From Phycisphaeraceae bacterium (GTDB taxonomy: Bacteria; Planctomycetota; Phycisphaerae; Phycisphaerales; UBA1924): a DNA stretch of 64,000 nucleotides. Where the stretch lies: positions 1-64,000 of the forward strand of contig JAJTHN010000022.1 in NCBI GenBank assembly GCA_021297895.1, in the 5' to 3' direction. Below are positions 8,538 through 23,564 of this stretch, piece after piece; within the stretch, counting starts at the first letter, position 1; each line of letters begins with the position of its first letter. Below the pieces are notes generated by a model. The model was not told where the DNA came from and searched no databases. It saw only the letters and a list, made by a program, of their open reading frames with translations. A program made the translations under genes and the position numbers.

Positions 8538-10214
8538 ATGCGGATCCGCAAGAAGCTCATCGTCCTTCACACGCTCTTCTCGATCATCCTTGCGGTTGTG
8601 CTCGTGGTGGCGATGAAGCCCACGCTCGATCGCATCATCGATCAGGCCGAAGTCCACGAAGCGCGCCTGGCCATCGCGCTCGTGCGTGCCCAACTCGGAG
8701 CAACCCGGACGCTTCAGCCGGGGCCGGAGGCCCACCAGCGCCTCATCAACGAGCTCGCCCCGACGCTCCCGGAGGGCGTCCGGCTTCAGGCCGGGACCGG
8801 CGAACTGCTGGGCGTCAACGCCGTCGCGCTCGCCGAGGCCCGCGCGACACCCGGCCAAGCGGTGGAGTTCCGCCTGAGTCCGATCTCGGGTCCGGATACG
8901 GGACTGCTCACGCCCCCGGGCTACAACGCCGCGGTGCTCATCGACCCGGTCGACGGTTCGGCATTCGTCGCGAGCGTGTACCTGCGAGAGTCGCGTGCCA
9001 GCGTCCTTCGGCTGTACGTCGTCATGACCGTTGCACTGCTCGGCGTTTACGCGCTGATTGCTCTGGCTCTGGAGGTCCTCGTCCTTCCCCAGCACGTGTA
9101 CGGCCCAATTCGCAGGCTGCTCAACGCCGACGAGGCCGTTCGAACGGGATTCGTTGCGGAGGAACTCATCGATGAGCGCACCATCCCAGCGGACGAACTC
9201 GGCGAGATCATGCGTTCGCGCAACCGGACCGTGCGCGATCTGCGTCGCCACGAGACTCAGCTCGCCAGAGCCCTGAAGGAACTGGAGACCACCGCGACCG
9301 ATCTGCAGCGAAAGAACCACTTGCTCGAAACAGCTCGGCGGAATCTCGCCGACGCGGACCGACTGGCGAGCCTGGGCATGATGAGCGCGGGCCTTGCTCA
9401 CGAGATGAACACGCCGCTGGCGGTGGTCAAGGGGCTCGTCGAGAAACTGCGTGCGCAGGGCGGACACCTCGATGACGCCGAGGCTCAATTGCTGCTCAGG
9501 GTCACCGGCAGGCTGGAACGACTGAGCGACAGCCTGCTGGACTTCGCCCGCGTCCGCCCGCCAAAGGCCGTGAGCACGAATCTTCGCTCGCTCGTGGATG
9601 AAGCATGGACACTGGTCGGGCTCGATCGCGATGTGCCGCGGGCCGAGTTTCTCAATGAGATCGACTCGACTACGCAGGTCCCATGCGATCCGGATCGGAT
9701 GCTCCAGGTGTTCGTGAACCTGCTTCGAAACGCCGCGGAGGCCACCCAGATCGGCGCCCGCGGCAGTGTCGGCCGGCTCGATGAGCCGGCTCCGGGTCCG
9801 CGCGAGCCGCGGGTCGAAGCCCGTGCGCAAGGTCTGACGCGTGACGGTCGATGCTGGATCACCGTCACCATTCGCGACAACGGCCCGGGGCTCGACCCCG
9901 CGGTGCTCGCGCGACTCTTTGAGCCTTTCGCGAGCACCAAACTCGATTCCCGCGGCACCGGTCTGGGTCTGGCCGTGAGCGAGGGCATCGTTCGGGAGCA
10001 TGGCGGACTCCTCATTGCCCGAAACGCCGCGACGGCCGACCCGACGGCGCACTCCGGCCACGGCGACACGCCCGCCACGGGTGCCATTTTCGAGATCTTG
10101 CTGCCACTGGGTGGCGAAGGGCGGGGCGAAACCCTTCGTCCACCAGATCCCGTACACTCCCAAACTCCGCCCGTGCCACTCAATGCGGGCGAAGCCTTCA
10201 CCGAGCACCGATGA
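8538..10214 (+). CDS. membrane sensor histidine kinase
   Basis: A 558-residue sensor kinase. The N-terminus has a membrane segment at about residues 9-28 and a second at about 158-180, bracketing a periplasmic sensor of roughly 130 residues. A HAMP-like linker and coiled coil lead to the H-box SAGLAHEMNTPLAVVKG with phosphoacceptor His288. The ATPase domain shows the N-box FVNLLRNAAEAT, the G1 box DNGPGLDP and the G2 box GTGLGLAVSEG. The signal sensed is unknown. The 3' end overlaps the response-regulator start by 4 bp (ATGA), so the two are translationally coupled. ATG 8538 begins at the first membrane segment; the frame is open upstream, so a proline-rich N-terminal extension from a TTG or GTG codon cannot be excluded. 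Confidence 0.85.
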   Translation: MRIRKKLIVLHTLFSIILAVVLVVAMKPTLDRIIDQAEVHEARLAIALVRAQLGATRTLQPGPEAHQRLINELAPTLPEGVRLQAGTGELLGVNAVALAEARATPGQAVEFRLSPISGPDTGLLTPPGYNAAVLIDPVDGSAFVASVYLRESRASVLRLYVVMTVALLGVYALIALALEVLVLPQHVYGPIRRLLNADEAVRTGFVAEELIDERTIPADELGEIMRSRNRTVRDLRRHETQLARALKELETTATDLQRKNHLLETARRNLADADRLASLGMMSAGLAHEMNTPLAVVKGLVEKLRAQGGHLDDAEAQLLLRVTGRLERLSDSLLDFARVRPPKAVSTNLRSLVDEAWTLVGLDRDVPRAEFLNEIDSTTQVPCDPDRMLQVFVNLLRNAAEATQIGARGSVGRLDEPAPGPREPRVEARAQGLTRDGRCWITVTIRDNGPGLDPAVLARLFEPFASTKLDSRGTGLGLAVSEGIVREHGGLLIARNAATADPTAHSGHGDTPATGAIFEILLPLGGEGRGETLRPPDPVHSQTPPVPLNAGEAFTEHR

Positions 10215-10921
10215 GCCCGCAGCACGAACACCAGCCCGGCACACCCGACGACCGCGCTCCTTCAATCGCCAGAGGTAGCGATGCGAACGCGCCGATCCCG
10301 CCGCTGCGAATCGTCGCCCTTGATGATGACGCGGACTTCCGCCAGTACCTTTCGGCCCTGCTGAGCTCTCCGAGCGCGTGCGTAACGCCGCCGGGTGTGC
10401 ACGATGTGCGCACGTGCAGCACTCCCGATGAACTGCTTGCGGCGTGCACCGAGCAGCTGCCGGATGTCGTGCTGCTGGACATGAAGATGGGCCGGGCATC
10501 CGGAGAGGATGTTCTGGTGGAGCTGCGCAAGCGCTGGCCGCGGATGTGCGTCATCGTGATCACCGGCTTCCCATCGATGGACTCCATGCGGCAGACGTTT
10601 CAGCAGAACGTCTTCGACTACCTGGCCAAGCCGTTCTCGATCGCCGACCTGAACAACAGCCTCCGCGCGGCGGTCGCCAAACTCGGTCTTGGACAGCGGC
10701 CGCAGGATCGGCTGCGCATCGAACTTGGCCGCCAGCTCCGCCTGGCACGCACCGAGCGCGACTGGACACTCAAGGAACTCAGCGAGGCCTCTGGCATCAG
10801 CATCAGCCAGTTGAGCAGCATCGAGCGCGGTGCGCACCTGCCCAGCCTCGAATCGCTCGTGGATATCGCCCGAGCGCTCGAGAAGCAGCCCAGCGCATGG
10901 TTGATCGCCGCGGGGCTGTGA
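10211..10921 (+). CDS. response regulator fused to XRE-type HTH
   Basis: A 236-residue protein with a receiver domain (residues about 32-155) and a C-terminal Cro/C1-type helix-turn-helix (about 172-235). The receiver keeps the acidic cluster DDDAD, the phosphoacceptor Asp90 in VLLDMKMG, the Thr of VITGF and the Lys of YLAKPF. The HTH reads WTLKELSEASGISISQLSSI followed by ERG, typical of XRE repressors. Most response regulators carry winged-helix, LuxR or Fis-type outputs, so the XRE output is uncommon. It overlaps the kinase gene by 4 bp and is very likely its partner. The target genes are not obvious; the next gene is on the opposite strand. Confidence 0.88.
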   Translation: MSPQHEHQPGTPDDRAPSIARGSDANAPIPPLRIVALDDDADFRQYLSALLSSPSACVTPPGVHDVRTCSTPDELLAACTEQLPDVVLLDMKMGRASGEDVLVELRKRWPRMCVIVITGFPSMDSMRQTFQQNVFDYLAKPFSIADLNNSLRAAVAKLGLGQRPQDRLRIELGRQLRLARTERDWTLKELSEASGISISQLSSIERGAHLPSLESLVDIARALEKQPSAWLIAAGL

Positions 10922-10951: not shown

Positions 10952-11860
10952 TCAGACGAAGTGCCGCGACCAGATCGGACCCAGTCGGCGGATCTCATAC
11001 GGATCGATCCGGTCCTTGCTCGTCCAGATCGCCAGTCCGAGCGCATCGTGGGCAGCGCTCGGAGCGCCGCGCAACGCTGACACATCGCGGATCGCGTGCT
11101 CGATCAGCCGGGCCGCGGCGTCCGCCGACGCCCGGAGGTTGCCGATGATCTCCGAAAGCAGCGACTGGCCCGATGCAACGGACCGCTCGCGCCAGCAGTC
11201 GTAGTCCGTTGGCAGCGCGACAAGGGCATACGCCATCTCGGCTTCGCGCACCAAACGAGCCTCGGGCAGCGCGGTCATGCCCACGACGTCCGCACCGAGC
11301 GTGCGATGCATCACGCTCTCCGCTCTCGTGCTGAACGACGGCCCGTCGATGCACACGTACGTTCCGCCGTTGCGCACGGCAATCCCAACGCCCTGACCAT
11401 CGGTCGCCGCGGCCATCAGCCAGGAGCGCATCTGTGCACACGTCGGCTCGGCAAATTCCACGTGAACGGCCGCTCGGTCAAAGAAGGTGCGGTTGTGCCC
11501 GCGCGAGCCCGTGCCGCTCGTTCGGTCGATGAACTGATCTACAAGCATGACGCCGCCCGGCCTTACCTCCTCGCGGAGCGAACCCACGGCTCCCGTGGCG
11601 ATCACGTGCGTCACGCCGAGCGACTTGAGCGCCCAGATATTGGCGCGATACGGAACTTCGTGAGGCGGGATGACGTGGCCCTCGCCATGTCGCTTGAGAA
11701 TCGCCACGCCAACCCCGCTCCCGGCGATAGTGCCCACCGCGATCGGGGCACTGGTGGGACCAAAGGGTGTGTCCAATCGCACCAACTCTGCCCCCAAAAG
11801 CAACCCACTCTCAGAAAGCCGGTGTTCGAGTCCACTACCGCCGATGATCGCGATCCGCAT
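10952..11860 (-). CDS. mtnP: methylthioadenosine phosphorylase family protein
   Basis: A 302-residue purine-nucleoside phosphorylase of the MTAP type, which splits 5'-substituted adenosines with phosphate into adenine and a 5-substituted ribose-1-phosphate. Visible motifs are GGSGL for the phosphate loop, RANIWALKSLG, VDQFIDRTSGTGSRGHNRTFF, GPSFSTRAES, VVGMTALPEARLVREAE and PTDYDCW; the Asp pair of TDYD marks adenine rather than 6-oxopurine specificity. A good ribosome site (AGAGGTAG) precedes ATG 11860. It is divergent from arsM across 189 bp. The usual role is methionine salvage. Next to an ArsM-ArsS operon it may instead or also remove adenine from the 5'-deoxy-5'-dimethylarsinoyl-adenosine made by ArsS; this is inference from position. 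Confidence 0.88.
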   Translation of the reverse strand: MRIAIIGGSGLEHRLSESGLLLGAELVRLDTPFGPTSAPIAVGTIAGSGVGVAILKRHGEGHVIPPHEVPYRANIWALKSLGVTHVIATGAVGSLREEVRPGGVMLVDQFIDRTSGTGSRGHNRTFFDRAAVHVEFAEPTCAQMRSWLMAAATDGQGVGIAVRNGGTYVCIDGPSFSTRAESVMHRTLGADVVGMTALPEARLVREAEMAYALVALPTDYDCWRERSVASGQSLLSEIIGNLRASADAAARLIEHAIRDVSALRGAPSAAHDALGLAIWTSKDRIDPYEIRRLGPIWSRHFV

Positions 11861-11938
11861 GACTACCTCTTTTCGGTGACGACTCGTCTCAGGTGGACCC
11901 TCGAAACCCTCGACTTGGCCCAACCCCGCGCACCTAGA

Positions 11939-11966
11939 GGAATAGGCGGGGACAGAACCCTATTCC
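11939..11966. promoter_or_regulatory. inverted repeat in divergent mtnP/arsM promoter region
   Basis: GGAATAGG at 11939-11946 and CCTATTCC at 11959-11966 are perfect inverted copies with 12 nt between, so their centres are two helical turns apart. The site is 79 bp from the mtnP start and 84 bp from the arsM start. It could be an operator for a dimeric repressor or a short RNA stem-loop. No ArsR gene is in the window. Confidence 0.45.
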
Positions 11967-12049
11967 CCATAAGGATGACACCGTCACACCGCATCGGACT
12001 GACGATCAGCCGGTGAGGTGGACGCACACTCGACCTTCGGAGCACACCA

Positions 12050-13264
12050 ATGTCCCCAGCCGCACAGGCCGCCGCCAACAACTCGACCTCCGTTGAACCT
12101 CGATCAGGACTGGAGCACGCAGTCAGAACGCGTTATGCCAGTGCATCGCGAGTCGCGGAGGCTGCGTTGTGTTGCCCGACGATCAACTACGACCGATCGT
12201 TGCTCTCGGTTCTCCCGGCAGAGATCATCGAAAAAGACTACGGCTGCGGCGACCCGACACGCTATGTGCAGGCCAGCGAAACCGTCGTGGATCTTGGCTC
12301 CGGCGGCGGCAAGATCTGCTACATGCTCTCGCAGAAAGTCGGTGCTGCCGGGAGCGTCATCGGTGTGGACTTCAACGACCCCATGCTCGCGCTCGCACGC
12401 AAGTACCAGCACCAGATCGCCGGAAAGATCGGCTGGAACAACACCCGCTTTGTCAAGGCCCGCATTCAGGACATGGGACTCGACCTGGATGCGCTGGAGC
12501 GCTGGATCACCGAGCACCCTGTTCGTTCGCTCGATGACATCGACGCGCTGGAGGCCCACAAGCGTCACCTTCGCGCGACGGCGCCGGCGGTGGCGGAAGG
12601 CGTGGCGGACGTCGTCGTCTCGAACTGCGTGCTGAATCTTGTCGCGACCGAGGAGAAGGACCGGCTCTTCGCCGAGATCTTCCGTGTGCTGCGAAAGGGC
12701 GGCCGAGCCGTGATCAGCGACATCGTCTGCGACGAGACGCCATCCGAGGCCATGCGGAGCGACCCCGATCTCTGGAGCGGCTGCATCTCCGGTGCGTTCC
12801 GTGAGGACGAGTTTCTCACGCGATTCGAGCTCGCCGGCTTTCACGGCATCGAGATCCTCGATCGCGCCGCCGAGCCCTGGCAGGTCATCGATGGCATCGA
12901 ATTCCGCTCCATGACCGTCCGCGCGTTCAAGGGCAAGCAGGGTCCGTGCTTCGAGCACAACCAAGCCGTCGTGTACAAGGGCCCGTGGAAGAAGGTCATC
13001 GATGACGACGGGCACACGCTCGTTCGCGGCGAGCGAATGGCGGTCTGCGACAAGACCTTCAAGATCCTCACCAACGACCACGGCCCGTACTCGGGGCAGG
13101 TCCTTGGGATCGAGCCCCGCACGGCGGTGGATCCTGCGGACGCCAAGCCCTTCGCTTGCAACACCCAGGCTCGACGCGATCCGCGCCAGACCAAGGGTCT
13201 GAACTACCGCGAGAACATCGCGCCGTCCAGCGACGTTTGCTGCACCGACGGGACCTGCTGCTGA
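12050..13264 (+). CDS. arsM: arsenite S-adenosylmethionine methyltransferase
   Basis: ArsM adds methyl groups from SAM to As(III), giving mono- and dimethylarsenite. The 404-residue product has SAM motif I VVDLGSGGGKICYML and acidic GVDFNDPM. Cysteines at 41/42, 66 (YGCGDP), 193 (SNCVLNL) and 245 (SGCISG) match in order and spacing the four arsenic-binding cysteines of characterised ArsM enzymes. The C-terminus carries further cysteines (CCTDGTCC), as in many ArsM proteins. It starts an operon whose next members are an aquaporin and ArsS, and is divergent from the MTAP homologue. The start is ATG 12050; no strong ribosome site is seen. Identity as an arsenic enzyme is strongly supported by ArsS two genes downstream. 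Confidence 0.9.
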   Translation: MSPAAQAAANNSTSVEPRSGLEHAVRTRYASASRVAEAALCCPTINYDRSLLSVLPAEIIEKDYGCGDPTRYVQASETVVDLGSGGGKICYMLSQKVGAAGSVIGVDFNDPMLALARKYQHQIAGKIGWNNTRFVKARIQDMGLDLDALERWITEHPVRSLDDIDALEAHKRHLRATAPAVAEGVADVVVSNCVLNLVATEEKDRLFAEIFRVLRKGGRAVISDIVCDETPSEAMRSDPDLWSGCISGAFREDEFLTRFELAGFHGIEILDRAAEPWQVIDGIEFRSMTVRAFKGKQGPCFEHNQAVVYKGPWKKVIDDDGHTLVRGERMAVCDKTFKILTNDHGPYSGQVLGIEPRTAVDPADAKPFACNTQARRDPRQTKGLNYRENIAPSSDVCCTDGTCC

Positions 13265-13330
13265 TCGTCACGCCCTGCTCCCGCCGGAACTGAATCCAAG
13301 ACAGCCACCTTGATCAAGGTCGACTCCCCC

Positions 13331-14044
13331 ATGAAGCAACGCATCGCCAATGAAGTGATCGGGACCTTCGTTCTCTGCTTCGGCGGGACCGGTGCGATCG
13401 TCGTGAACAACGTGTCCGGCGGAGCCATCACGCATCCGGGAGTTGCGTTGACATTCGGCCTGGTCGTGGCCGCGGCGATTCTGGCCTTCGGCGCGACCAG
13501 CGGCGCACACTTCAATCCCGCTGTGACGGTCGCGCTCTGGCTCGATGCCAAGGTGGCCGGTCGCTCGGTGCTGCCTCAGATCGTCGCGCAGTGCTGCGGT
13601 GCGATCGCCGCTTCGCTGCTGCTGCGAGCACTGTTCCCCGCCGCGACCACGCTCGGGCAGACAATGCCTGTCGCCGGCGTGTGGCAGTCGTTCGTGCTTG
13701 AAGTCACGCTGACCTTCATTCTGCTGCTGACGATTCTTCGGGTTGCGGCCGTGCCCGGGGCGAGCTCGCTCGTAACGGCGATCGCGGTCGGGGCGGTGGT
13801 CGCGCTGGAGGCGATGTTTGCCGGGCCGATGTGCGGAGCGTCGATGAATCCCGCCCGCTCGCTTGGCCCCGCGGTCGTGTCCGGCCAGCTCGAAAGCCTC
13901 TGGATCTATCTCTCCGCGCCGCCGCTCGGCGCCGCCGCGGGTGTTCTGATCGACAGACTTTTTCTGCGAGAAGTACCGCCAGCGCCGTCCGCGATCGAGC
14001 CCGCTCCTTCGCCCGCCGTTCGCCCTCTGGAGTCCCTGGCATGA
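13331..14044 (+). CDS. aquaporin/MIP channel with wide selectivity filter
   Basis: A 237-residue major intrinsic protein with six membrane segments and two NPA boxes (HFNPAVT, N62; SMNPARS, N173). Aligned by eye to E. coli AqpZ, the four filter positions are Phe42, Ala161, Ala170 and Arg176. AqpZ has Phe, His, Thr, Arg, so the two small alanines should widen the pore enough for neutral solutes such as As(OH)3 or glycerol. It lies between arsM and arsS, 66 bp after arsM, and overlaps arsS by 4 bp. The likely role is arsenite entry or exit, or glycerol supply for arsenosugars; this is inference. ATG 13331 was chosen over TTG 13310. Confidence 0.9.
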   Translation: MKQRIANEVIGTFVLCFGGTGAIVVNNVSGGAITHPGVALTFGLVVAAAILAFGATSGAHFNPAVTVALWLDAKVAGRSVLPQIVAQCCGAIAASLLLRALFPAATTLGQTMPVAGVWQSFVLEVTLTFILLLTILRVAAVPGASSLVTAIAVGAVVALEAMFAGPMCGASMNPARSLGPAVVSGQLESLWIYLSAPPLGAAAGVLIDRLFLREVPPAPSAIEPAPSPAVRPLESLA

Positions 14045-15138
14045 GCCTCCGAGACACCCACGCCGAGGACTGTTGCTCGCACGAGTCGCCGTGCGGGGAT
14101 TCATCGCACGCCGCCTCACCACCGCCACCTGCCTCACCCGTCCGGCTCACGCTCGACGGCTGCCCGTCGTTCGAGCCCAATGAGTTCGACCTCGCCATCG
14201 CGCGACATACCGGTTCCATGCTGCGAGCGATGGACATCCGGACTGTGCAGCTGAACGTCGGCCTGCGATGCAATCTCGCGTGCCATCACTGCCATGTCGA
14301 GAGCGGTCCGAAGCGAAACGAGGAGATGTCCTGGGATGTCATGCTCGATGCGCTCGAGGTGGCCCAGCGAGCCGGTGCACGCACGATCGACATCACCGGC
14401 GGCGCGCCGGAGATGAACCCCTGCTTCAAGCCGCTCGTCGCGCGCGCTCGCTCGATGCGCTTCGAGGTCATTGTCCGGACAAATCTGACGATCGTTCTCG
14501 AGCCGGGCTATGCGGATCTTCCCGAGTTTTTCCGATCACACAACGTGCACCTGGTCGCGTCGCTGCCCTGCTATCTCGAAGTCAACGTCGATCGCCAGCG
14601 GGGCAGGCATGTCTACGCCGAGAGCATCGAGGTCATCCGCCGGCTCAACGCGCTCGGCTTCGGCATCATGCCCGACCTCGAGCTCGACCTCGTGTACAAC
14701 CCGGGCGGCCCGTCGCTCCCGCCCGATCAGCATGCGCTCGAGCGGGATTATCGACGCGAGCTCGAGCGTCAGTTCGGCCTCAAGTTCACGCGGCTCTACA
14801 CGATCACCAACATGCCCATTGGCCGATTCCAGCGCGACCTGGAGCGCGCCGGAAGGGCCGACGCATACCTGAGCAAGCTCCGCAACGCCTTCAATCCGTC
14901 GACGATCGATGCTCTGATGTGCCGGCATCAGATTCACGTCGCCTACGACGGCACGCTCAGCGACTGCGACTTCAACTTCGCTCTCAAGCTCGGCGTGAAC
15001 GGAACGAGCTCCAAGGTCCGCGACCTTCTGCGGCCCGAAGTGCTCCACACTCTCACGACCCGCCCGATCGCGACCGCCCCCCACTGCTTCGCCTGCACCG
15101 CAGGCTGCGGCAGTTCCTGTACCGGCTCCCTGACCTGA
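14041..15138 (+). CDS. arsS: radical SAM enzyme of arsenosugar synthesis
   Basis: A 365-residue radical-SAM protein. Cys77, Cys81 and Cys84 in CNLACHHC bind the 4Fe-4S cluster. ITGGAPEMNP follows as the SAM-contact strand. The C-terminus ends with HCFACTAGCGSSCTG, the cysteine-rich tail of the ArsS family. In cyanobacteria ArsS is reported to transfer the 5'-deoxyadenosyl group of SAM to dimethylarsenite, giving the nucleoside precursor of arsenosugars. Some family members are selenoproteins; here the positions are plain cysteine codons. The Cys/His-rich N-terminus (EDCCSHESPCGDSSH) is a possible extra metal or arsenic site. Its ATG overlaps the aquaporin stop (ATGA), so the two are coupled. 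Confidence 0.9.
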   Translation: MSLRDTHAEDCCSHESPCGDSSHAASPPPPASPVRLTLDGCPSFEPNEFDLAIARHTGSMLRAMDIRTVQLNVGLRCNLACHHCHVESGPKRNEEMSWDVMLDALEVAQRAGARTIDITGGAPEMNPCFKPLVARARSMRFEVIVRTNLTIVLEPGYADLPEFFRSHNVHLVASLPCYLEVNVDRQRGRHVYAESIEVIRRLNALGFGIMPDLELDLVYNPGGPSLPPDQHALERDYRRELERQFGLKFTRLYTITNMPIGRFQRDLERAGRADAYLSKLRNAFNPSTIDALMCRHQIHVAYDGTLSDCDFNFALKLGVNGTSSKVRDLLRPEVLHTLTTRPIATAPHCFACTAGCGSSCTGSLT

Positions 15139-15195
15139 CGCACGTTGCCTCAGCAAGCACCCTCCCACTCGCGACTGCCTTCGCCCCCGACCACC

Positions 15196-16854
15196 ATGAA
15201 CACACCAGTCGCACCGGCAATGGTCGGAACCGCATCGCGATCGGCGCAGTCGACGCGTCAAGTACTCCGCGTTGTCCTGTGGGCGCTGATCATCGTCGCC
15301 GCGTTTGTGATTCTGCGCTCGCTTCCGATCAGCGCCGGGTTGGACCTGCTCCAGCGAAAGGTCACCGCATTCGGTCCGTGGGGACCGATCATCTTCGGCG
15401 TTGCGTACTTCCTCGCGGCGGTCCTTTTCGTCCCGGGGTCGGCGCTCACGCTCGCAGCGGGCGCGATCTTCGGCATCCCCGGAGGATTCGCGACCGTGTC
15501 GATCGCTTCCACGGCCGCGGCGGGCACATCCTTCCTGATCGCTCGATACCTCGCGAGGGACAAGGTCCGCGCCCTGGCCGACAGCAACCGCACGTTCGGT
15601 GCCATCGATCGCGCGATCGCGCAGGGCGGGTGGCGCATCATCGCGCTGCTACGGCTCTCACCGGCGGTGCCGTTCTCGCTGGGCAACTACCTCTATGGCC
15701 TGACCCCCGTGAAGTTCTGGCCGTATGTCATCGCCTCGTGGATCGCCATGATGCCGGGGAGCTTTCTGTACGTGTATCTCGGCTTTGTCGGCAGAACCGC
15801 GGCGGGCGCCGCGTCGTCCGCCGCGCCCGCGGGACGCAACGTGTGGCAGTACGTGCTGCTGGCCGCGGGCCTGCTTGCCACCGTCGCCGTCAGCGTTTAC
15901 GTGACACGACTCGCACGAAAGGCCCTGAAGGAGACCGCCTTGACAAAACCCGCGGCCAGCAATGAAGAGACACAGGCTCCCGCCGCGAAACCCGCGGCTC
16001 GCGCCCGTTCGCTCGTCGGTCTGGGTGCGGTCGCCGCGCTCGCCGTTGGCCTGGCGGCGTGCGCTCATATCGCAAAGCCGCGCCTCGCTGGGCTCTTCGG
16101 CCCACCAAAGGCCACGCTCACGGAGGCTTATGCCGACACGACCGCGACGGGCACGTTCGATCACTCGGCGCTCGATCGAGTCCTCAAAACGCACGTGCGC
16201 GACGGCGGCTTCGTCGACTACGCCGCGCTCGCCGGAGATTCGGCGCAGCTGGATGCGTACATCGCCTCGCTCGCGAACGCCACGCCCGACGGCCTCAGCC
16301 GTGATGAGCGACTCGCCCTGCTGATCAACGCCTACAACGCCTTCACACTCAGGCTCATTCTCGATCACGCCCCCGTCGCCTCGATCCGGGACATCCCGGC
16401 GGAGAAGAGATGGAAGGCGGTCCGTTGGAACCTCGCCGGCACGCTCTACAGCCTTGATCAGATCGAGCATGAGCAGATCCGTCCGAGGTTCGCCGAGCCC
16501 CGAGTGCACTTCGCGCTCGTGTGTGCCGCCGTGGGCTGCCCTCCACTGCGACAGGGGGCGTACGTCGGCTCGCGGATTCAGGAACAACTGACCGACCAGG
16601 CCGCGTACGTCCATGCGAGCCCGCGCTGGCTGCGACTGGACACGAAAGCCGGCGAACTCCGCCTCACGGCGCTGTACGACTGGTTCGCCGGCGACTTCCT
16701 GCAGCAGGCTCCCACCGTCGCGGCGTTTGCCGCACGATCCTCCCCGGAACTCATGACACTCATCAAGTCGGGCAGAGAGCCACGCGTGACCTTCCTGGAT
16801 TACGACTGGACTCTCAACAGCATCGAGAACGCCGCGCGAGCGACCGCACCTTGA
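15196..16854 (+). CDS. TVP38/DedA-type membrane protein fused to DUF547
   Basis: A 552-residue two-part protein. Residues about 15-235 form a VTT (TVP38/TMEM64, SNARE-associated) membrane domain with the two re-entrant motifs FVPGSALTLAAGAIFG and LRLSPAVPFSLGNYLYG; members of this superfamily include lipid scramblases and DedA transporters. A further hydrophobic segment near residues 275-295 is followed by a DUF547 domain (about 320-545) with LLINAYNAFTLRLILDH and HFALVCAAVGCPPL. DUF547 has no agreed biochemical function. The two domains are usually separate neighbours near arsS genes; here they are one chain. It starts 57 bp after arsS and ends 34 bp before the flavoprotein gene. A role in moving arsenosugar lipids across the membrane is possible but only inferred. 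Confidence 0.82.
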   Translation: MNTPVAPAMVGTASRSAQSTRQVLRVVLWALIIVAAFVILRSLPISAGLDLLQRKVTAFGPWGPIIFGVAYFLAAVLFVPGSALTLAAGAIFGIPGGFATVSIASTAAAGTSFLIARYLARDKVRALADSNRTFGAIDRAIAQGGWRIIALLRLSPAVPFSLGNYLYGLTPVKFWPYVIASWIAMMPGSFLYVYLGFVGRTAAGAASSAAPAGRNVWQYVLLAAGLLATVAVSVYVTRLARKALKETALTKPAASNEETQAPAAKPAARARSLVGLGAVAALAVGLAACAHIAKPRLAGLFGPPKATLTEAYADTTATGTFDHSALDRVLKTHVRDGGFVDYAALAGDSAQLDAYIASLANATPDGLSRDERLALLINAYNAFTLRLILDHAPVASIRDIPAEKRWKAVRWNLAGTLYSLDQIEHEQIRPRFAEPRVHFALVCAAVGCPPLRQGAYVGSRIQEQLTDQAAYVHASPRWLRLDTKAGELRLTALYDWFAGDFLQQAPTVAAFAARSSPELMTLIKSGREPRVTFLDYDWTLNSIENAARATAP

Positions 16855-16888
16855 TCGATGGCACGCCCACATACGACCGAGCACACAC

Positions 16889-18472
16889 ATGACCATCGCT
16901 CCCTCCGAGCATCCATCAACCCCGCTTGCCGACGCCGACTCGCTCGGCGGGCTTGACCCGCACATCCTCGATGACCTTCAGCCGCTCGACGAGCACAATC
17001 TCGCGCTGCTCAGCGCCGTTCGGCCCACAAACTGGGTGAATCCACAGCCGGCGGGGCGATACAACATGGTCGTCATCGGCGGCGGCACCGCGGGGCTCGT
17101 GACCGCGGCGGGGGCGGCGGGGCTCGGTGCCCGCGTTGCCCTCATCGAGCGTCGGCTCATGGGCGGCGACTGCCTGAACTTCGGCTGCGTGCCCAGCAAG
17201 GTCCTGATCCGTGCCGCCCGCAGCGTTGCCGAGGTGCGCGATGCCCATGAACACGGCGTCGACGCGAGTCTGAACGACATCGACTTCGCGACCGTCATGC
17301 GGCGCATGCGTCGCCTCCGCGCCTCGATCGCCCCACATGACTCGGCCGATCGATTCCGCTCGCTGGGGATCGATGTCTTCATCGGCGATGCACGCTTCAC
17401 CAGCCCGAGCACGATCGAGGTCGATGGCCAGACGCTCCGGTTCTCCCGCGCGTGCATCGCCACCGGCGCGCGACCGACGGTGCCGCCCATCCCTGGGCTT
17501 GCCGAAGTCGGCATGCTCAGCAATGAGAACGTGTTCACACTCACGACACTCCCGCGTCGCCTCGCGGTTCTGGGGTCAGGCCCTATCGGCTGTGAACTTG
17601 CGCAGAGCTTCGTACGGTTTGGCTCGCGCGTCACCATCATCGAGCGCGACCGGCAGATCCTGCCTCGCGAGGATCGCGATGCCGCCGAGCACGTCATCGA
17701 GTCGATGCGCCGCGATGGTGTCGAGTTCTGCCTTGAGACCTCCGTGCTGAGAGTCTCCCGATCGGCCACGGGGAAGTTGCTCACGATCAAGTCCGCCGCG
17801 GGCGAGTCGATGCTGGAAGTCGACGAAATCCTCGTCGGCATCGGACGCTCGCCCAACGTCGAGGGCCTCGGGCTCGACGCGGCGGGGGTGAAGTTCGATG
17901 TCCGCACGGGCGTCGACGTGAACGACAACCTGCGCACGACAAACCCGCACATCTTCGCCGCGGGGGATGTGGCCAGCAAGTACAAGTTCACCCACGCCGC
18001 GGACGCGATGGCCCGCATCGTCATTCAGAACGCGCTGTTCTTCGGCCGGGCCCGTGCTAGCAAACTCGTCATGCCCTGGTGCACATACACCGACCCCGAA
18101 GTCGCACACGTCGGTCTGTACCATAAAGAAGCGATCGAGCGCGGCATCGCGGTGGATGTGATCGGCCTCAAGCTCGAGACCGTCGACCGCGCCATCCTCG
18201 ACGGCGAGACAGGGCTTCTCAAGGTCATCCTCGCCAAGGGCTCCGACCGCATCCTTGGAGCCACGCTCGTCTCGCGCCATGCCGGTGAGACAATCTCCGA
18301 GCTCACCTCCGCCATCACGCTGGGCATCGGTCTGAAGAAGCTCGCCAGCGTGATCCATCCGTATCCGACGCAGGCCGAGATCATCAAGCGCGCAGCCGAC
18401 GCCTACAGCCGCACACGTCTGACGCCGGGCGTCAAGCAGCTCTTCACCAGGTTCCTCGCGTGGCGGCGATGA
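16889..18472 (+). CDS. MerA-like pyridine nucleotide-disulfide oxidoreductase
   Basis: A 527-residue flavoprotein with FAD-binding GGGTAGLVTAAG, the redox disulfide Cys95/Cys100 in GGDCLNFGCVPSK, NADPH-binding GSGPIGCELAQ, and the second FAD motif ATNPHIFAAGDV-like TTNPHIFAAGD. The dimerisation domain contains the HPYPTQAEI segment where glutathione reductases have the catalytic His-Glu. It resembles mercuric reductase but lacks both the N-terminal heavy-metal domain and the C-terminal vicinal cysteines, so it is not a mercury detoxifier as such. About 55 extra residues precede the FAD domain. In this operon it could reduce a pentavalent arsenical or a protein disulfide. The stop overlaps the next start by 4 bp. 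Confidence 0.88.
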   Translation: MTIAPSEHPSTPLADADSLGGLDPHILDDLQPLDEHNLALLSAVRPTNWVNPQPAGRYNMVVIGGGTAGLVTAAGAAGLGARVALIERRLMGGDCLNFGCVPSKVLIRAARSVAEVRDAHEHGVDASLNDIDFATVMRRMRRLRASIAPHDSADRFRSLGIDVFIGDARFTSPSTIEVDGQTLRFSRACIATGARPTVPPIPGLAEVGMLSNENVFTLTTLPRRLAVLGSGPIGCELAQSFVRFGSRVTIIERDRQILPREDRDAAEHVIESMRRDGVEFCLETSVLRVSRSATGKLLTIKSAAGESMLEVDEILVGIGRSPNVEGLGLDAAGVKFDVRTGVDVNDNLRTTNPHIFAAGDVASKYKFTHAADAMARIVIQNALFFGRARASKLVMPWCTYTDPEVAHVGLYHKEAIERGIAVDVIGLKLETVDRAILDGETGLLKVILAKGSDRILGATLVSRHAGETISELTSAITLGIGLKKLASVIHPYPTQAEIIKRAADAYSRTRLTPGVKQLFTRFLAWRR

Positions 18473-19869
18473 GGCCTCCAACATCGCGCGCCTGGGCTCT
18501 TCCGGCGGTGCTCGGGCTGCCGATGTACGCCATCGCTCTGGCCGCGCTGTCGCCGGCTCTCAGTCACGGCCTCATCGACCGCGTCACGGCCGCCAACTCG
18601 GTCGCGATCGTTGGCGTTCTTGCCGGCGCGGCGTACTTCATCACACTTCTGCTCCTTCGTCACTGTGCGCATCTGGCCGATCTTCGCATGCTCCTGGCCG
18701 CCGCGATCGTGGCGAGGCTCATCGTTTGTGCGTCGCCGCCGATGCTCGAAACCGACTACCAGCGATACCTGTGGGACGGCGCATCGATCATCGCAGGCGT
18801 CAATCCCTACCGCCATGCGCCGGCGAGCGCACTGGCCATGCCCAGCGACCAGCCCGACGCTCCGGCACTGGCCCGTCTCATTCGTGACTCCGCCGCAGCG
18901 GACAACGTGCACTCGAAGATCAACCACCCCGAAGTCCGGACTGTGTATCCGCCCCTCGCGCAGGCCGCGTTCGCGCTCGCCGCGCTGCTCCGCCCCTTCG
19001 ATCCTCTGGGACTTCGCCTTGTTTTCGCGGCGGCCGACGCGCTCGCGGCGGTGCTGATTCTGCGTCTGCTCCGGACGCTCAATCTTCCGGACGGTCAACT
19101 CGCGTGGTACGTGCTCAACCCACTCCTTCTGCGGGAGGTGTACTCAGGGGTGCACATGGAGGCCCTGCTGCTGCCCATGATCGCCGGTGCCGCGCTCTTG
19201 GCGGCAGGTCATCGCCACATGCTGGCATCATGCATCGCGGCGGCTGCGTCGGCGGTGAAGGTCTGGCCCGCTTTTCTCATCATCGCCCTCCTGCCGCGCG
19301 GATCCCCGCGGCGGCTGGTTCTCGCGGGCATCGCCGCCGGGGCCGTGATCGCCGCGCTCTGGGCGCCGGTGCTCAGCGTGACACACGACCACACCAGCGG
19401 CTTTGTCGCGTACACCGAACGGTGGCAGTTCAACGACGGGTTCTTCCGGGCGAGCACGTGGGCGCTGTCGAACGTACTGCCGCTCTTCTCGGTCGACGCG
19501 TCGCAGGCCCGGAGCATCATGCGGCCGGTTGCCGCCGCGCTCGTTTTGCTGACGGCATTCTGGGTCTGCCGTAGACCGCCGGCGGGTGTAACGGACTCCT
19601 GCCGACGGATGCTCATCATCACCGCGTCCCTCTTCCTGCTCAGCCCGACGCAGTTTCCGTGGTACTGGCTCTGGCTGCTGCCAATGCTCACGGTCATTCC
19701 CGCGCCCGCGCTGCTGCTATACACCGTGCTCCTGCCGATCTACATCCTGCAGGAGTATGTGATGTCGCCATGGATCAACGCGGCACAGCACGCGCCGGTG
19801 TGGGCCGCACTTGGGCTCACCGCGCTTGTGTCGCTCCTCTCTCACCCTCAGGAACACGCCCATGCGTAA
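18469..19869 (+). CDS. GT87-family integral membrane glycosyltransferase
   Basis: A 466-residue polytopic membrane protein with about ten hydrophobic segments. Early acidic motifs (LETDYQRYLWDG) and the later VYPPLAQAAFALAAL resemble the GT87/DUF2029 family, which transfers a sugar from polyprenyl-phosphate donors on the outer face of the membrane. It overlaps the flavoprotein gene by 4 bp and the triple-domain glycosyltransferase by 8 bp, so it is co-translated with both. The adjacent N-terminal GT2 domain looks like a polyprenyl-phosphate-sugar synthase, which could supply its donor. The acceptor is unknown. Confidence 0.78.
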   Translation: MRPPTSRAWALPAVLGLPMYAIALAALSPALSHGLIDRVTAANSVAIVGVLAGAAYFITLLLLRHCAHLADLRMLLAAAIVARLIVCASPPMLETDYQRYLWDGASIIAGVNPYRHAPASALAMPSDQPDAPALARLIRDSAAADNVHSKINHPEVRTVYPPLAQAAFALAALLRPFDPLGLRLVFAAADALAAVLILRLLRTLNLPDGQLAWYVLNPLLLREVYSGVHMEALLLPMIAGAALLAAGHRHMLASCIAAAASAVKVWPAFLIIALLPRGSPRRLVLAGIAAGAVIAALWAPVLSVTHDHTSGFVAYTERWQFNDGFFRASTWALSNVLPLFSVDASQARSIMRPVAAALVLLTAFWVCRRPPAGVTDSCRRMLIITASLFLLSPTQFPWYWLWLLPMLTVIPAPALLLYTVLLPIYILQEYVMSPWINAAQHAPVWAALGLTALVSLLSHPQEHAHA

Positions 19870-22069
19870 CGGAGCCTCCGTCGCGGTGATCATTCCCGCG
19901 CTGAACGAAGAAGCCGCGATTCCCGGCGTGATCGCCCGGATTCCCACCTGGGTCGATCGCATCATCGTCGTTGACAACGGCTCGACCGACGCCACCACCC
20001 GTGCCGCCATCGACGCGGGTGCGCGGGTCGTGCACGAGCCGCGCCGGGGGTACGGGCGCGCGTGCCTCGCGGGAATTCGTGAACTGGAGCCGCCGAACGC
20101 CAATGCGGACATCATCGTCTTTCTTGACGGTGATGGGAGCGACTTTCCGGAGCAAATGCCGGATCTGGTCGAGCCCATTGCCAATGGTGTTGCCGACATG
20201 GTCATCGGCTCCCGCACCCGCGGCATCATGAGCGTCGGCGCAATGACACCGCCGCAGCGCATCGGAAATGCCCTTGCGCCCTGGCTTATCGGGCTGCTGT
20301 GGGGTGCACGCTTCAGCGACCTCGGTCCGTTCCGCGCAATCCGCGCATCCTCGCTCCGCGCACTCCGCATGGATGACACCACCTTCGGCTGGACGGTCCA
20401 GATGCAAATCCGCGTTGCTCGCGCCCGCCTGACCTTTCTCGAGGTTCCCGTCGACTACGGACGCCGCAAGGCCGGCCGATCCAAGATCTCCGGCACGGCG
20501 CTCGGCGTGATCCGCGCGGGCGCGAAGATTCTCTCCAGCACCGCGCGCGAGTTCATCCTCCGACCCACCATCGACACCAACGCCCGCGAAGCCCTCGGCA
20601 TCATGGCCAAGCACCCGGTGCCGGGCCTGGCCAAGACTCGACTCATCCCCGCGCTCGGCGCCGATGGTGCCGCCGAGATTCACGATTCGATGGTGCGCCA
20701 CACGCTCCGCCAGGTTCTCGCCGCTCGTCGGGAGCGCGGACTACACGCCCACGTCTGGGTTTCCGGGGCCGAGCCGGCGCACTTCAAGCGTCACTTCGGC
20801 GTTGATCTCGATGCATCCCCTCAGCCCGCGGGCGACCTGGGGGCTCGCATGCAGCAGGCATTTTCGTCCCTGCTGCGCAGCGCCTCCAGCGCCGTGCTCA
20901 TCGGCACCGACTGCCCCGAACTCTCTCCGGGAGTCCTCCGGCTGGCCTTCGAGCAGTTGCGTTCGGCCGATGTCGTTCTCGGCCCCGCGGTCGACGGCGG
21001 CTACTACCTCATCGGCATGCGTCGCCCGACACCCGCTCTCTTCGCGGACATGCCCTGGAGCACCAGCGACGTGCTGCGAATCACGGTTGATCGAGCCCGC
21101 GCGCTGGGGCTGCGCACAGCGCTGCTCCCGACGCTGTCCGACGTCGACGAACCGTCCGACCTGCCGCTCTGGGAGCGCATCCGCGGCGCGGCCCACGTCC
21201 CGGCTCCCGGGCTCTCGATCATCATCCCGACTCTGAACGAGTCCCAACGAATCGGCGAGCTCGTCTCATCGCTCACCGGTAGCGATGTCGAGGTCATCGT
21301 CGCCGATGGCGGAAGCACAGATCAGACGCGAGAGCTCGCCGCGGCTTCGGGAGCTCGCGTCGTGCTCTCGCAGCGGGGGCGAGGCAGCCAACTCAACGCC
21401 GGTGCCGCGCTCGCCCGTTCCGAGAATCTGCTGTTCCTTCACGCGGATACCCGTCTGCCGGCACGCTTCGTCGATCATGTGCGAGAGACACTCGGGGCAG
21501 ATGGCGTCGCGCTCGGCGCCTTCGGCTTTGCGCTCGACCGTCCGGGCCTGCGTTTCCGCGCGCTCGAGCTCGCCGTTGCTCTGCGTTGCCGATGGCTCGG
21601 TCTGCCCTTCGGCGATCAGGCACTGTTTCTGACGCGGCAGACCTTCACCGCGCTCGGCGGTTTTGCGGACATGCCCCTTATGGAGGACTTCGAGCTTGTC
21701 CGGCGGGCCCGCGCGATGGGACGCATCCGCACCCTATCGGTCCCCGCCGTCACCTCGGCGCGACGCTGGTCAAACACGGGGGTGCTCAAGATGGCGTTGA
21801 TCAACGCCGCGTGCATCGCCGGGTACGCGCTGAATGTTCCTCCGGCGCGCCTCGCGGCCTGGCGCAACCGTGCAACCAGACCACTCGGACCTGCATCGAC
21901 GCACGCCGTGTCATCTCCCGCACCGGCAGCCAGCACGAGCGACGGAGCGAGTTCGCCAGACACTCCTGCCGGATCGTCCGACGTTCAGATCGTTCCGCTG
22001 GGTGGTTCTGCGCCGAGCGCTTCCACCACTCCGGTCATCGCCTCGGGCGAACCCGACGTCAGGAAGTAG
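19862..22069 (+). CDS. triple fusion: GT2 + TIGR04282 + TIGR04283
   Basis: A 735-residue protein with three GT-A-like domains. Residues 1-230 are a GT2 of the dolichyl-phosphate-mannose-synthase type (VIIPALNEEAAIPG, FLDGDGSDFPEQM, GSRTRG, FRAIRASSL). Residues about 238-445 match TIGR04282/DUF2064 (MAKHPVPGLAKTRLIPALG, LIGTDCPELSPG, GPAVDGGYYLIGM). Residues about 450-670 match TIGR04283, the arsenosugar glycosyltransferase family (IIPTLNESQRIGEL, VADGGSTDQT, LFLHADTRLPA, GDQALF, MEDFELVRRAR, TSARRWSNTG). A Ser/Pro/Ala-rich tail ends the chain. TIGR04282 and TIGR04283 are commonly separate genes beside arsM and arsS, so this fusion ties the chain to that pathway. The last 85 bp overlap the convergent anti-sigma gene. 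Confidence 0.88.
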   Translation: MRNGASVAVIIPALNEEAAIPGVIARIPTWVDRIIVVDNGSTDATTRAAIDAGARVVHEPRRGYGRACLAGIRELEPPNANADIIVFLDGDGSDFPEQMPDLVEPIANGVADMVIGSRTRGIMSVGAMTPPQRIGNALAPWLIGLLWGARFSDLGPFRAIRASSLRALRMDDTTFGWTVQMQIRVARARLTFLEVPVDYGRRKAGRSKISGTALGVIRAGAKILSSTAREFILRPTIDTNAREALGIMAKHPVPGLAKTRLIPALGADGAAEIHDSMVRHTLRQVLAARRERGLHAHVWVSGAEPAHFKRHFGVDLDASPQPAGDLGARMQQAFSSLLRSASSAVLIGTDCPELSPGVLRLAFEQLRSADVVLGPAVDGGYYLIGMRRPTPALFADMPWSTSDVLRITVDRARALGLRTALLPTLSDVDEPSDLPLWERIRGAAHVPAPGLSIIIPTLNESQRIGELVSSLTGSDVEVIVADGGSTDQTRELAAASGARVVLSQRGRGSQLNAGAALARSENLLFLHADTRLPARFVDHVRETLGADGVALGAFGFALDRPGLRFRALELAVALRCRWLGLPFGDQALFLTRQTFTALGGFADMPLMEDFELVRRARAMGRIRTLSVPAVTSARRWSNTGVLKMALINAACIAGYALNVPPARLAAWRNRATRPLGPASTHAVSSPAPAASTSDGASSPDTPAGSSDVQIVPLGGSAPSASTTPVIASGEPDVRK

Positions 22070-22959
22070 ATCAGCCCATCGCGATGCCAGACATAGATCT
22101 TGCTCGCCGCATCGATCGCGTCGGGCTTCGTCGGCTCAAGCAGGAACGTCCGGCCGGGCTCGAACGAGAGATCGCCCGTGTCCTGCTGGATGTGAACCGA
22201 CACCATCGAACCGTTCAGACTCGCCGGCGCACGCAGAACAAGCCTGAACGATCGACCCCGCCCCGGTACGGCGCACGGCCCAGCCCCAAGAAGTGTGAAG
22301 CCCGCCGACTGAATCGTCGACACATCCGGAGCCTGTCCCAGGACGCGCTCGAGCCCCGCCGGCACCTGATTCATGCTCGTGATCCGGTACCACTGCGGCA
22401 CCAAGTCCGCATGAATCTCGCACTCTTGGTGATACGTCGCGACGAACGTCGTAATCGCCTCTCGCAGCGGCATCGGGATGTCTTGACGCACCATCGCCGC
22501 CGGCCTCTGCGGGAACACGTGGCCCGCGAAGTACCAAAGCCCGCCCGAGAGCATGACCGCCGCGGCGACCGACATGGCCACCATCACCCGCCCACCCCGG
22601 GCCCGAGCCCGCTCACCGTTGGTCGAATTCTCGGACGACTCCGAGCGCACTGCCTGCTCGATCGTCCGATGCGTCCGTTCGGCCAGACCCTTCGGCAAAG
22701 GCTCGCTCGCCTCGGGCATGCTCGCGACGGCACGCCGCAGGCCACGCTCAAACTCGATCACGAGCGCATCGTCCGGCGAGTTCCGCAGATGCCGCTGGAG
22801 CGCCGCTTCGTCGGCAGCGGACAGCTCACCGTCCGCCGCCGCGCGCAGCAAACCAGACCGCGAGCTCGCCGCTTCCGCCAGCCTCCCGCATTCGTGATCC
22901 CCTTGCTCCGTTCCCAAGCTCATCGCATCGCTCCTGGATCCGAACTCACGGTTGTTCAT
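21985..22959 (-). CDS. putative anti-sigma factor, single-pass membrane
   Basis: A 324-residue protein starting 4 bp inside the end of the ECF sigma gene (ATGA overlap), the standard place for an anti-sigma factor. Residues about 34-75 (LLRAAADGELSAADEAALQRHL) resemble the helical head of anti-sigma domains, which binds the sigma factor; His and Cys residues just before it (DHECGRL) could make a partial zinc site. A membrane segment lies at about residues 124-146, and about 175 residues are outside the cytoplasm. The outer part ends in YVWHRDGLIYFLTSGS, resembling the extracytoplasmic region of other planctomycete anti-sigma proteins. Its last 85 bp are antisense to the tail of the triple glycosyltransferase. 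Confidence 0.75.
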   Translation of the reverse strand: MNNREFGSRSDAMSLGTEQGDHECGRLAEAASSRSGLLRAAADGELSAADEAALQRHLRNSPDDALVIEFERGLRRAVASMPEASEPLPKGLAERTHRTIEQAVRSESSENSTNGERARARGGRVMVAMSVAAAVMLSGGLWYFAGHVFPQRPAAMVRQDIPMPLREAITTFVATYHQECEIHADLVPQWYRITSMNQVPAGLERVLGQAPDVSTIQSAGFTLLGAGPCAVPGRGRSFRLVLRAPASLNGSMVSVHIQQDTGDLSFEPGRTFLLEPTKPDAIDAASKIYVWHRDGLIYFLTSGSPEAMTGVVEALGAEPPSGTI

Positions 22960-23564
22960 GGACGGCCATCCCGGTCACCCGCATCTGCCGTGTTGCTCAT
23001 CGACCCCAGACGCCGAACCGCCGCCGCCGTTGCCGGGTCAGACAGCAGGACCCTCGCGGCCTGCGCCCTCGCTCGATGAAGCCTGCTCATGACGGTGCCG
23101 ATCGGTGTGGACATCACTTCGGCAATCTCCTTGTACCGCAGGCCCTCCACGCCCCATAACCACAGAACCTCGCGCAGCTCCGCGTTCATCATTCCCATTC
23201 GCTCGTACAGAACTCCTGAAGCGGCCGACCAATCCAGCTCATCGAGGCTCACGCCAGTCGGCGCGTCGTCTTCACCTCCCGAAGCACAGCGGGCCAGATC
23301 TCGAGCACCTTCGATCACCCGGGCCCCGGCCTGCTCGCGCTCGAGCATCCCGTAGAAGCGCGTCCGCGCAATGGTCATCAGCCAGGCACGCATGCCTCCA
23401 CCTCGGCTCACAAACGAAGCGATCGATTCGGCACGGAATGCTCGCGCGTAGACCTCCTGCACCAATTCCTCGGCGCGATCGGTATCCCTCGTCAATGAAC
23501 GAGCAAACCGGTACACCGGCTCCAGTTCAGCCAGTGCAAGCCTCTCGAATTCGTCTCGCAACAT
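22956..23564 (-). CDS. ECF RNA polymerase sigma factor
   Basis: A 202-residue group 4 sigma factor. Region 2 is seen as VYRFARSLTRDTDRAEELVQ with VYARAF, and region 4 as the HTH around REVLWLWGVEGLRYKEIAEV plus GTVMSRLHRARAQ. A short linker joins them, with no region 3. It redirects RNA polymerase to a small regulon and is likely held inactive by the coupled membrane anti-sigma gene. The start at ATG 23564 has no strong Shine-Dalgarno. The 147 bp upstream may hold an autoregulated promoter, but no convincing -35/-10 pair was fixed. Confidence 0.9.
   Translation of the reverse strand: MLRDEFERLALAELEPVYRFARSLTRDTDRAEELVQEVYARAFRAESIASFVSRGGGMRAWLMTIARTRFYGMLEREQAGARVIEGARDLARCASGGEDDAPTGVSLDELDWSAASGVLYERMGMMNAELREVLWLWGVEGLRYKEIAEVMSTPIGTVMSRLHRARAQAARVLLSDPATAAAVRRLGSMSNTADAGDRDGRP

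Follow-up and report, generated by a model that had tools for sequence, protein, structure and literature searches.

Arsenosugars are a major form of arsenic in marine algae. Members of the ArsM family produce dimethylarsenite, and members of the ArsS family produce 5'-deoxy-5'-dimethylarsinoyl-adenosine. For arsenosugar biosynthesis, a radical SAM enzyme that adenosylates arsenic has been described (PMC12159101, where arsenolipids of Synechocystis are also cited), and arsenosugar clusters in general are already known, since NCBI names families for them. The fate of the ArsS product is not described in the open papers searched, among which none was found on the steps after ArsS or on the function of TIGR04282 and TIGR04283. 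Here we analyze a seven-gene operon and a divergent homologue of 5'-methylthioadenosine (MTA) phosphorylase (MTAP/MtnP) in a 64,000-nt stretch of a Phycisphaeraceae bacterium (contig JAJTHN010000022.1), which is called the window and supplies all position numbers; its proteins were compared with the profiles of NCBIfam and Pfam. The operon and its relatives name candidate enzymes for the missing steps, namely MTAP or PNP for the removal of adenine, TIGR04282 for nucleotide activation, TIGR04283 for the glycoside and GT2/GT87 glycosyltransferases (GT) for a membrane branch.

On balance, we favour a phycisphaeran arsenosugar pathway that runs from ArsM through ArsS, MTAP and TIGR04282 to TIGR04283, with a branch through GT2 and GT87. 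In detail, and judging the first two steps by homology, ArsM would convert arsenite to dimethylarsenite, to which ArsS, whose family has been characterised elsewhere, would add a 5'-deoxyadenosyl group to give 5'-deoxy-5'-dimethylarsinoyl-adenosine. The divergent MTAP may then strip off adenine, leaving alpha-arsenoribose-1-phosphate (5-deoxy-5-dimethylarsinoyl-ribose-1-phosphate); the MTA phosphorylase family accepts 5'-modified 5'-deoxyadenosines. As its fold suggests, the CofC-like nucleotidyltransferase TIGR04282 would activate this compound to a nucleoside diphosphate (NDP) sugar, NDP-arsenoribose, from which the inverting GT2 domain TIGR04283 might move arsenoribose to an acceptor, e.g. 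a glycerol derivative, yielding a beta-riboside. More tentatively, the DPM-like GT2 and GT87 could provide an alternative or extra branch via a membrane sugar linked to polyprenyl phosphate, and a MerA-like flavoprotein probably serves to maintain the arsenic/thiol chemistry in a reduced state. GT2 enzymes invert. Natural arsenosugars are beta-ribofuranosides, by compound name in PMC6656958, and a succession from alpha-sugar-1-phosphate to NDP-alpha-sugar, followed by transfer through an inverting GT2, would explain the beta-ribosides found in nature.

ArsM, ArsS and the conservation of the operon

The seven genes lie on the plus strand and code for ArsM, a MIP channel, ArsS, a VTT-DUF547 fusion, the MerA-like flavoprotein, GT87 and a triple-domain GT. 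The gaps measure 66 bp between arsM and the MIP gene (45 bp with an alternative TTG instead of the ATG start, at 13310), 57 bp between arsS and the VTT-DUF547 gene and 34 bp between the latter and the MerA-like gene. Overlaps of 4 bp join MIP to arsS and the MerA-like gene to the GT87 gene, and one of 8 bp joins GT87 to the GT fusion, while the MTAP gene is divergent from arsM at a distance of 186 bp. Open reading frames and profiles thereby confirmed the genes, directions, gaps of 34-66 bp, three overlaps of 4-8 bp and divergent MTAP of a first-pass annotation that had been made from the letters of this DNA.

ArsM (12050..13264) stays below the curated NCBI cut-offs, with 309 bits against 500 for NF040538 and 116.3 against 400 for the arsenosugar model NF038099. 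Alignment to 4kw7 and 4fr0 and a motif check revealed equivalents of Cys72, Cys174 and Cys224 of CmArsM in YGCG, SNCV and GCISGA, and the protein ends in a CC tail. Judged by homology and these cysteines, it is a clear member of the As(III) methyltransferase family, and it was not assigned to the NF038099 subfamily. ArsS (14041..15138) exceeds the curated cut-off of TIGR04167 (403.5 against 300) and contains the Radical_SAM and PF12345 domains. It carries the radical SAM cluster motif CNLACHHC (CxxxCxxC) and a cysteine-rich C-terminal tail, CFACTAGCGSSC (CxxCTAGCGSSC); the motif columns are invariant across 19 homologues. By family, it is predicted to adenosylate dimethylarsenite. Its closest match, at 63% identity, comes from a Phycisphaerales metagenome-assembled genome, which bears out the planctomycete origin given in the first-pass annotation.

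ArsS above cut-off was found in 91 of 294 planctomycete genomes, and an iterated profile search was used to compare 40 planctomycete ArsS loci and 80 from many phyla. The order ArsM, ArsS, VTT/DUF547, MerA-like, GT87 and the fusion of GT2, TIGR04282 and TIGR04283 recurs in loci L039, L043 and L085 (the contig of L085 begins after arsM), the same set is rearranged in L067 and L071, and L044 has a version without VTT and MerA, so that the gene order sought in other Planctomycetota was found whole, rearranged or reduced in six loci; six genomes besides that of the window thus combine the triple fusion with GT87. This near-identity of gene set and order argues, far beyond chance, for a real operon. 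With the three arsenic-binding cysteines of ArsM and with ArsS, TIGR04282 and TIGR04283 all above cut-off, the label 'arsenosugar operon', already proposed from the letters, appears well supported. In detail, the 118 distinct loci (window included) have TIGR04282 near ArsS in 59 cases, TIGR04283 in 53, ArsM in 40, MerA-like in 34, VTT in 31, DUF547 in 16, GT2 in 13, GT87 in 12 and MIP in one.

Within the order, full-length ArsM occurs in 19 genomes, all 19 of which are ArsS-positive. In ten loci (L173, L174, L177, L179, L182-L185, L188 and L189) no gene for ArsM, a MerA-like protein or TIGR04282 was seen within about 10 kb of ArsS; in those genomes of the order with a solitary ArsS, there may be another arsenic source or another substrate for ArsS.

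The triple-domain fusion and a possible membrane branch

The last gene of the operon (19862..22069) was described in the first-pass annotation as a fusion of TIGR04282 and TIGR04283; both domains are present, and a third, N-terminal one had been missed. This GT2 domain (19862..20594) resembles AglJ and dolichyl-phosphate hexose transferases. It scores 168.6 bits with the AglJ model TIGR04182, below the cut-off of 325, the best solved match of its profile is the DPM synthase 5mlz (2.5e-16), and the DGD and RGYG motifs are conserved, suggesting that it works like a DPM/AglJ polyprenyl-phosphate glycosyltransferase without being an AglJ member by score. The TIGR04283 domain, with the tail of the protein (21212..22069), lies above its cut-off (278.6 against 182 bits) and has invariant HxD, GDQ and ED motifs.

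The middle domain, TIGR04282/DUF2064 (20597..21163), also exceeds its cut-off (203.9 against 134 bits). Its residues K13, R15, D105, D133, D182 and D184 are invariant, and the lysine, arginine and aspartates are shared with CofC. When a profile built from 36 ArsS-linked domains was searched against the PDB, the top match was 3cgx, an uncharacterised 'putative NDP-sugar transferase', followed by the 2-phospholactate guanylyltransferases CofC/FbiD, 3-phosphoglycerate guanylyltransferase and 2i5e. An AlphaFold model (predicted local distance difference test, pLDDT, 97) gave the same matches and then KdsB cytidylyltransferases and GlmU uridylyltransferases. A glycosyltransferase role appears improbable, as the nearest characterised solved relatives by both profile and fold are nucleotidyltransferases. 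In view of these matches and of the residues shared with CofC, the activity given in the widespread NCBI name 'TIGR04282 family arsenosugar biosynthesis glycosyltransferase' is probably incorrect. Nucleotide activation of a sugar phosphate would fit the predicted fold and the fusions with glycosyltransferases.

The adjoining gene encodes an integral-membrane glycosyltransferase of the GT-C type, GT87 (18469..19869), which matches PF09594 with 39.3 bits (gathering score 25), has about nine hydrophobic segments and resembles mannosyltransferases. GT87 enzymes depend on polyprenyl-phosphate sugars, and by family membership the protein of the window would use such a sugar too. GT2 and/or GT87 accompany ArsS in 14 distinct loci, window included, 11 of which also have ArsM, and in L040 GT87, GT2 and TIGR04282 form one protein of 913 aa. 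In a search of the phylum, the close GT87 subfamily comprised 16 matches of at least 330 bits, 12 of them within 13 kb of ArsS and 14 near ArsS or TIGR04282 when TIGR04282 within 5 kb is counted, compared with just four of the next 55 matches; the profile was made from ArsS-linked members, which favours such members. Because of this conservation, the assignment of the GT2 and GT87 genes to the arsenosugar operon is supported. Endings with TIGR04283 and with GT2/GT87 look partly interchangeable, because TIGR04283 is absent from seven of the 14 loci having GT2 or GT87; L040, L059, L078 and L095 combine GT2/GT87 with TIGR04282 and lack TIGR04283.

The glycosyltransferase genes might be passengers with unrelated roles in the cell envelope, in a cluster that serves chiefly for arsenic detoxification. 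TIGR04282 is indeed present in 75 of 203 ArsS-negative planctomycete genomes, the gene content near ArsS is highly variable and many ArsS loci of the order are solitary. The repeated fusions, the conserved order, the linkage of the GT87 subfamily and the presence of TIGR04282 in 86 of 91 ArsS-positive genomes speak against this explanation, which we regard as very improbable. It had been stated beforehand that glycosyltransferase genes conserved in relatives without arsM and arsS would refute the first-pass interpretation: this is partly the case for TIGR04282, and not for the close GT87.

The first-pass annotation saw in the operon a full pathway to a membrane-linked arsenosugar. With such an end product, GT2 would load arsenoribose onto polyprenyl phosphate, VTT would flip it and GT87 would transfer it outside. 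The loci that combine GT2 or GT87 with ArsS, mostly with ArsM as well, the replacement of TIGR04283 in four of them, the fusion in L040 and the GT87 linkage are in favour of this product, whereas VTT is common where GT2/GT87 are absent, being often fused to the MerA-like protein there, the sugar handled by GT2/GT87 could be an ordinary hexose, and 52 loci with TIGR04282/TIGR04283 lack GT2/GT87, so that the branch is not a general route. We consider a membrane- or polyprenyl-linked end product unlikely; such support as the claim has comes from GT2 and GT87 and not from VTT, and the 'full pathway' is only an inference, with a putative adenine removal and a putative acceptor. Quite unlikely, too, is the more specific sequence in which the MTAP product, activated by TIGR04282 to NDP-arsenoribose, is passed by GT2 to polyprenyl phosphate and by GT87 to the outside of the cytoplasmic membrane, giving planctomycete arsenic-bearing glycoconjugates. 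Contrary to what had been supposed, a lipid end-product would not be unusual, since arsenosugar phospholipids and phytyl arsenosugars have already been described (PMC11009773). Lipid-linked arsenosugars are thus not new as compounds; a polyprenyl-phosphate route would be new.

Alternatively, TIGR04282 and TIGR04283 alone could handle arsenoribose, and GT2 and GT87 could add an ordinary sugar, be it as decoration of the arsenosugar or on a membrane lipid, as a modification of the cell surface. Glycosyltransferases of these families normally use hexoses, and the likeness of GT2 to the DPM/AglJ hexose transferases and of GT87 to mannosyltransferases agrees with this; yet the loci without TIGR04283 keep TIGR04282 together with GT2/GT87, an indication that the product of TIGR04282 can be a substrate of GT2, and on the whole we hold the ordinary sugar to be somewhat unlikely.

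The divergent MTAP homologue

The MTAP gene (10952..11863, minus strand) scores 261.6 bits with TIGR01694, below the equivalog cut-off of 274.85, as do the MTAPs of 18 other genomes of the order. The purine-site motif TDYDCW and the phosphate-site motif RHG are present, and by homology and motifs the protein is a clear member of the family. It is the single MTAP of the window genome, in which no MtnA was found. Because this genome and eight other ArsS-positive genomes are without MtnA, the enzyme would not serve canonical methionine salvage in them.

Among the 121 genomes of the order, MTAP occurs in all 32 ArsS-positive genomes and in 20 of 89 ArsS-negative ones (Fisher 7e-16, shared descent being ignored); in the MtnA-negative genomes the figures are nine of nine and four of 73, again ignoring shared descent. 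In the family of the window, MTAP was seen in two genomes, that of the window and G365, and the ArsS-bearing one has it beside arsM; six relatives, 96-100% complete, have neither MTAP nor ArsS. No synteny of the MTAP locus with G365 was found. Elsewhere, MTAP or PNP directly adjoins ArsS in L124 (Bdellovibrionaceae), L127 (Rhodospirillales) and L139 (Fulvivirga), and it lies one gene away in L046 and L047, two planctomycete genomes of one genus, which makes five observed cases where 0.67 would be expected (P 7e-4 with all five included).

The enzyme might instead be a mere neighbour with a housekeeping function, the salvage of MTA or 5'-deoxyadenosine, and take no part in arsenosugar synthesis, adenine being removed from the arsenic compound by another nucleosidase. 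MtnP is known to act on 5'-deoxyadenosine in salvage (PMC8102628), and MTAP is unlinked to ArsS in most relatives. The counts within the order, those without MtnA in particular, the position beside arsM in the ArsS-bearing one of two MTAP genomes in the family and the independent adjacencies in other phyla point away from a mere neighbour, which we see as a real possibility of clearly less than even likelihood.

Several points weigh against the pathway favoured above, some of which fit a housekeeping MTAP equally. Across the phylum, the link between ArsS and MTAP is not significant (42 of 91 against 73 of 203, p = 0.12), and MTAP was rejected as a phylum-wide partner of ArsS. The counts within the order ignore phylogeny. 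The genomes of L067 and L071 have the full GT set and no MTAP, and therefore MTAP cannot be obligatory everywhere, while G365 has MTAP and lacks ArsS. The MTAP of the window clusters, at 48-58% identity, with MTAPs of its order that are ordinary and unlinked (L169, an empty sequence, was left out of this grouping), and a special arsenic clade was not seen. In addition, 13 ArsS-positive genomes of the order are without a close ArsM, TIGR04282 has further roles too, because many ArsS-negative genomes carry it, and we know of no precedent for NDP-arsenoribose.

Accessory genes and comparison with known systems

The MIP, VTT, DUF547 and GT87 domains all lie above the Pfam gathering scores. For MIP, VTT and DUF547, a part in transport or in handling at the membrane is conceivable. 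The MIP/aquaporin channel (13331..14044; PF00230 155 bits, TIGR00861 141) is a possible route of arsenic uptake or efflux. Among the 117 distinct loci compared first, none had another MIP near ArsS, one weak match of 42 bits was later seen in L178, and the channel was rejected as a conserved part of the operon, being essentially restricted to the window. A gene for a PiT-like phosphate transporter, named from its sequence rather than by a profile, lies near ArsS in L043, L055, L058, L067, L070 and L071 and is possibly an entry route for arsenate.

The fusion of a DedA/TVP38-type VTT membrane domain with DUF547 (15196..16854; PF09335 88 bits, PF04784 84 bits) is also found in L043, L067, L070, L071, L083 and L085, and in L059 DUF547 is fused to a GT2 domain. 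The DUF547 model is confident (pLDDT 87.5 overall, about 97 in the folded part). Foldseek gave no PDB match for it below E = 1, which does not show a new fold, and VIA-align reached a best Z of 4.1, to unrelated proteins, from which no function was drawn.

The MerA-like FAD disulfide oxidoreductase (16889..18472) exceeds the NF004991 cut-off (782 against 620) and has the CLNFGC redox pair and no HMA domain. Mercuric reductase MerA was rejected, as the TIGR02053 score is 394 against 454 and the tail ends in FLAWRR, without the C-terminal cysteine pair; the protein is a probable thiol or organoarsenical reductase. VTT also occurs in ArsS loci of many phyla without GT2/GT87, and in several proteobacteria (L107, L126, L127, L146, L153 and L156) VTT and the MerA-like protein are fused into one protein beside ArsS, an arrangement that points to joint action of the two. 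A redox module recurs as a neighbour of ArsS: L040 and L059 lack the MerA-like gene, and its possible replacement beside arsM is a flavoprotein containing 4Fe-4S domains (L040:11747-14371 and L059:12474-14687).

Promoter and terminator signals in the window were at no more than chance level, and an Rfam scan of it gave 0 matches above threshold. Upstream (8538-10921, plus strand), a histidine kinase gene is followed by one for a response regulator that has a helix-turn-helix of the Cro/C1 type at its C-terminus, and the pair is convergent with the MTAP gene; the combination of receiver and HTH_3 is uncommon, and regulation of the arsenic locus by this pair is possible. On the minus strand (21985-23564), genes for a sigma factor of the ECF type and a putative anti-sigma factor with a zinc finger run towards the operon and overlap its end by 85 bp.

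Compared with known systems, the locus is close to the cyanobacterial arsenosugar pathway of Synechocystis, with which it shares an ArsM-type methyltransferase, ArsS, TIGR04282 and TIGR04283, the last three above cut-off here. In contrast to that pathway, the window has one operon that adds MIP, VTT-DUF547, the MerA-like protein, GT87 and the DPM-like GT2, and its ArsM misses the NCBI arsenosugar model (116 against 400). That ArsM scores best with the model from the arsinothricin cluster arsQML of Burkholderia gladioli (PMC8552651), which likewise pairs an ArsM relative with a radical SAM enzyme making a C-As bond; the radical SAM family of the window differs, however, and there is no ArsL-type transfer of 3-amino-3-carboxypropyl.

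With CofC/FbiD and 3-phosphoglycerate guanylyltransferase, the TIGR04282 domain has the fold, the KTRL motif and acidic residues in common, but its identity to them is about 20%, it is part of fusions with glycosyltransferases and it is linked to ArsS. The MtnP salvage of 5'-deoxyadenosine shares with the window the MTAP family, the TDYDCW motif and the proposed splitting of a 5'-deoxyadenosine derivative to a sugar-1-phosphate, whereas in the window MtnA is absent from the genome, the gene is divergent from arsM and the proposed substrate bears arsenic. Like the pairs of DPM1/AglJ with GT-C enzymes (GT87/PimE, GPI-MT-I), the window has a GT2 domain adjacent or fused to GT87, but here the pair is linked to arsenic genes, and the GT2 lies inside a triple fusion and has no transmembrane segment. 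What is new is the planctomycete version of the cluster, with its triple fusion, GT87 and divergent MTAP.

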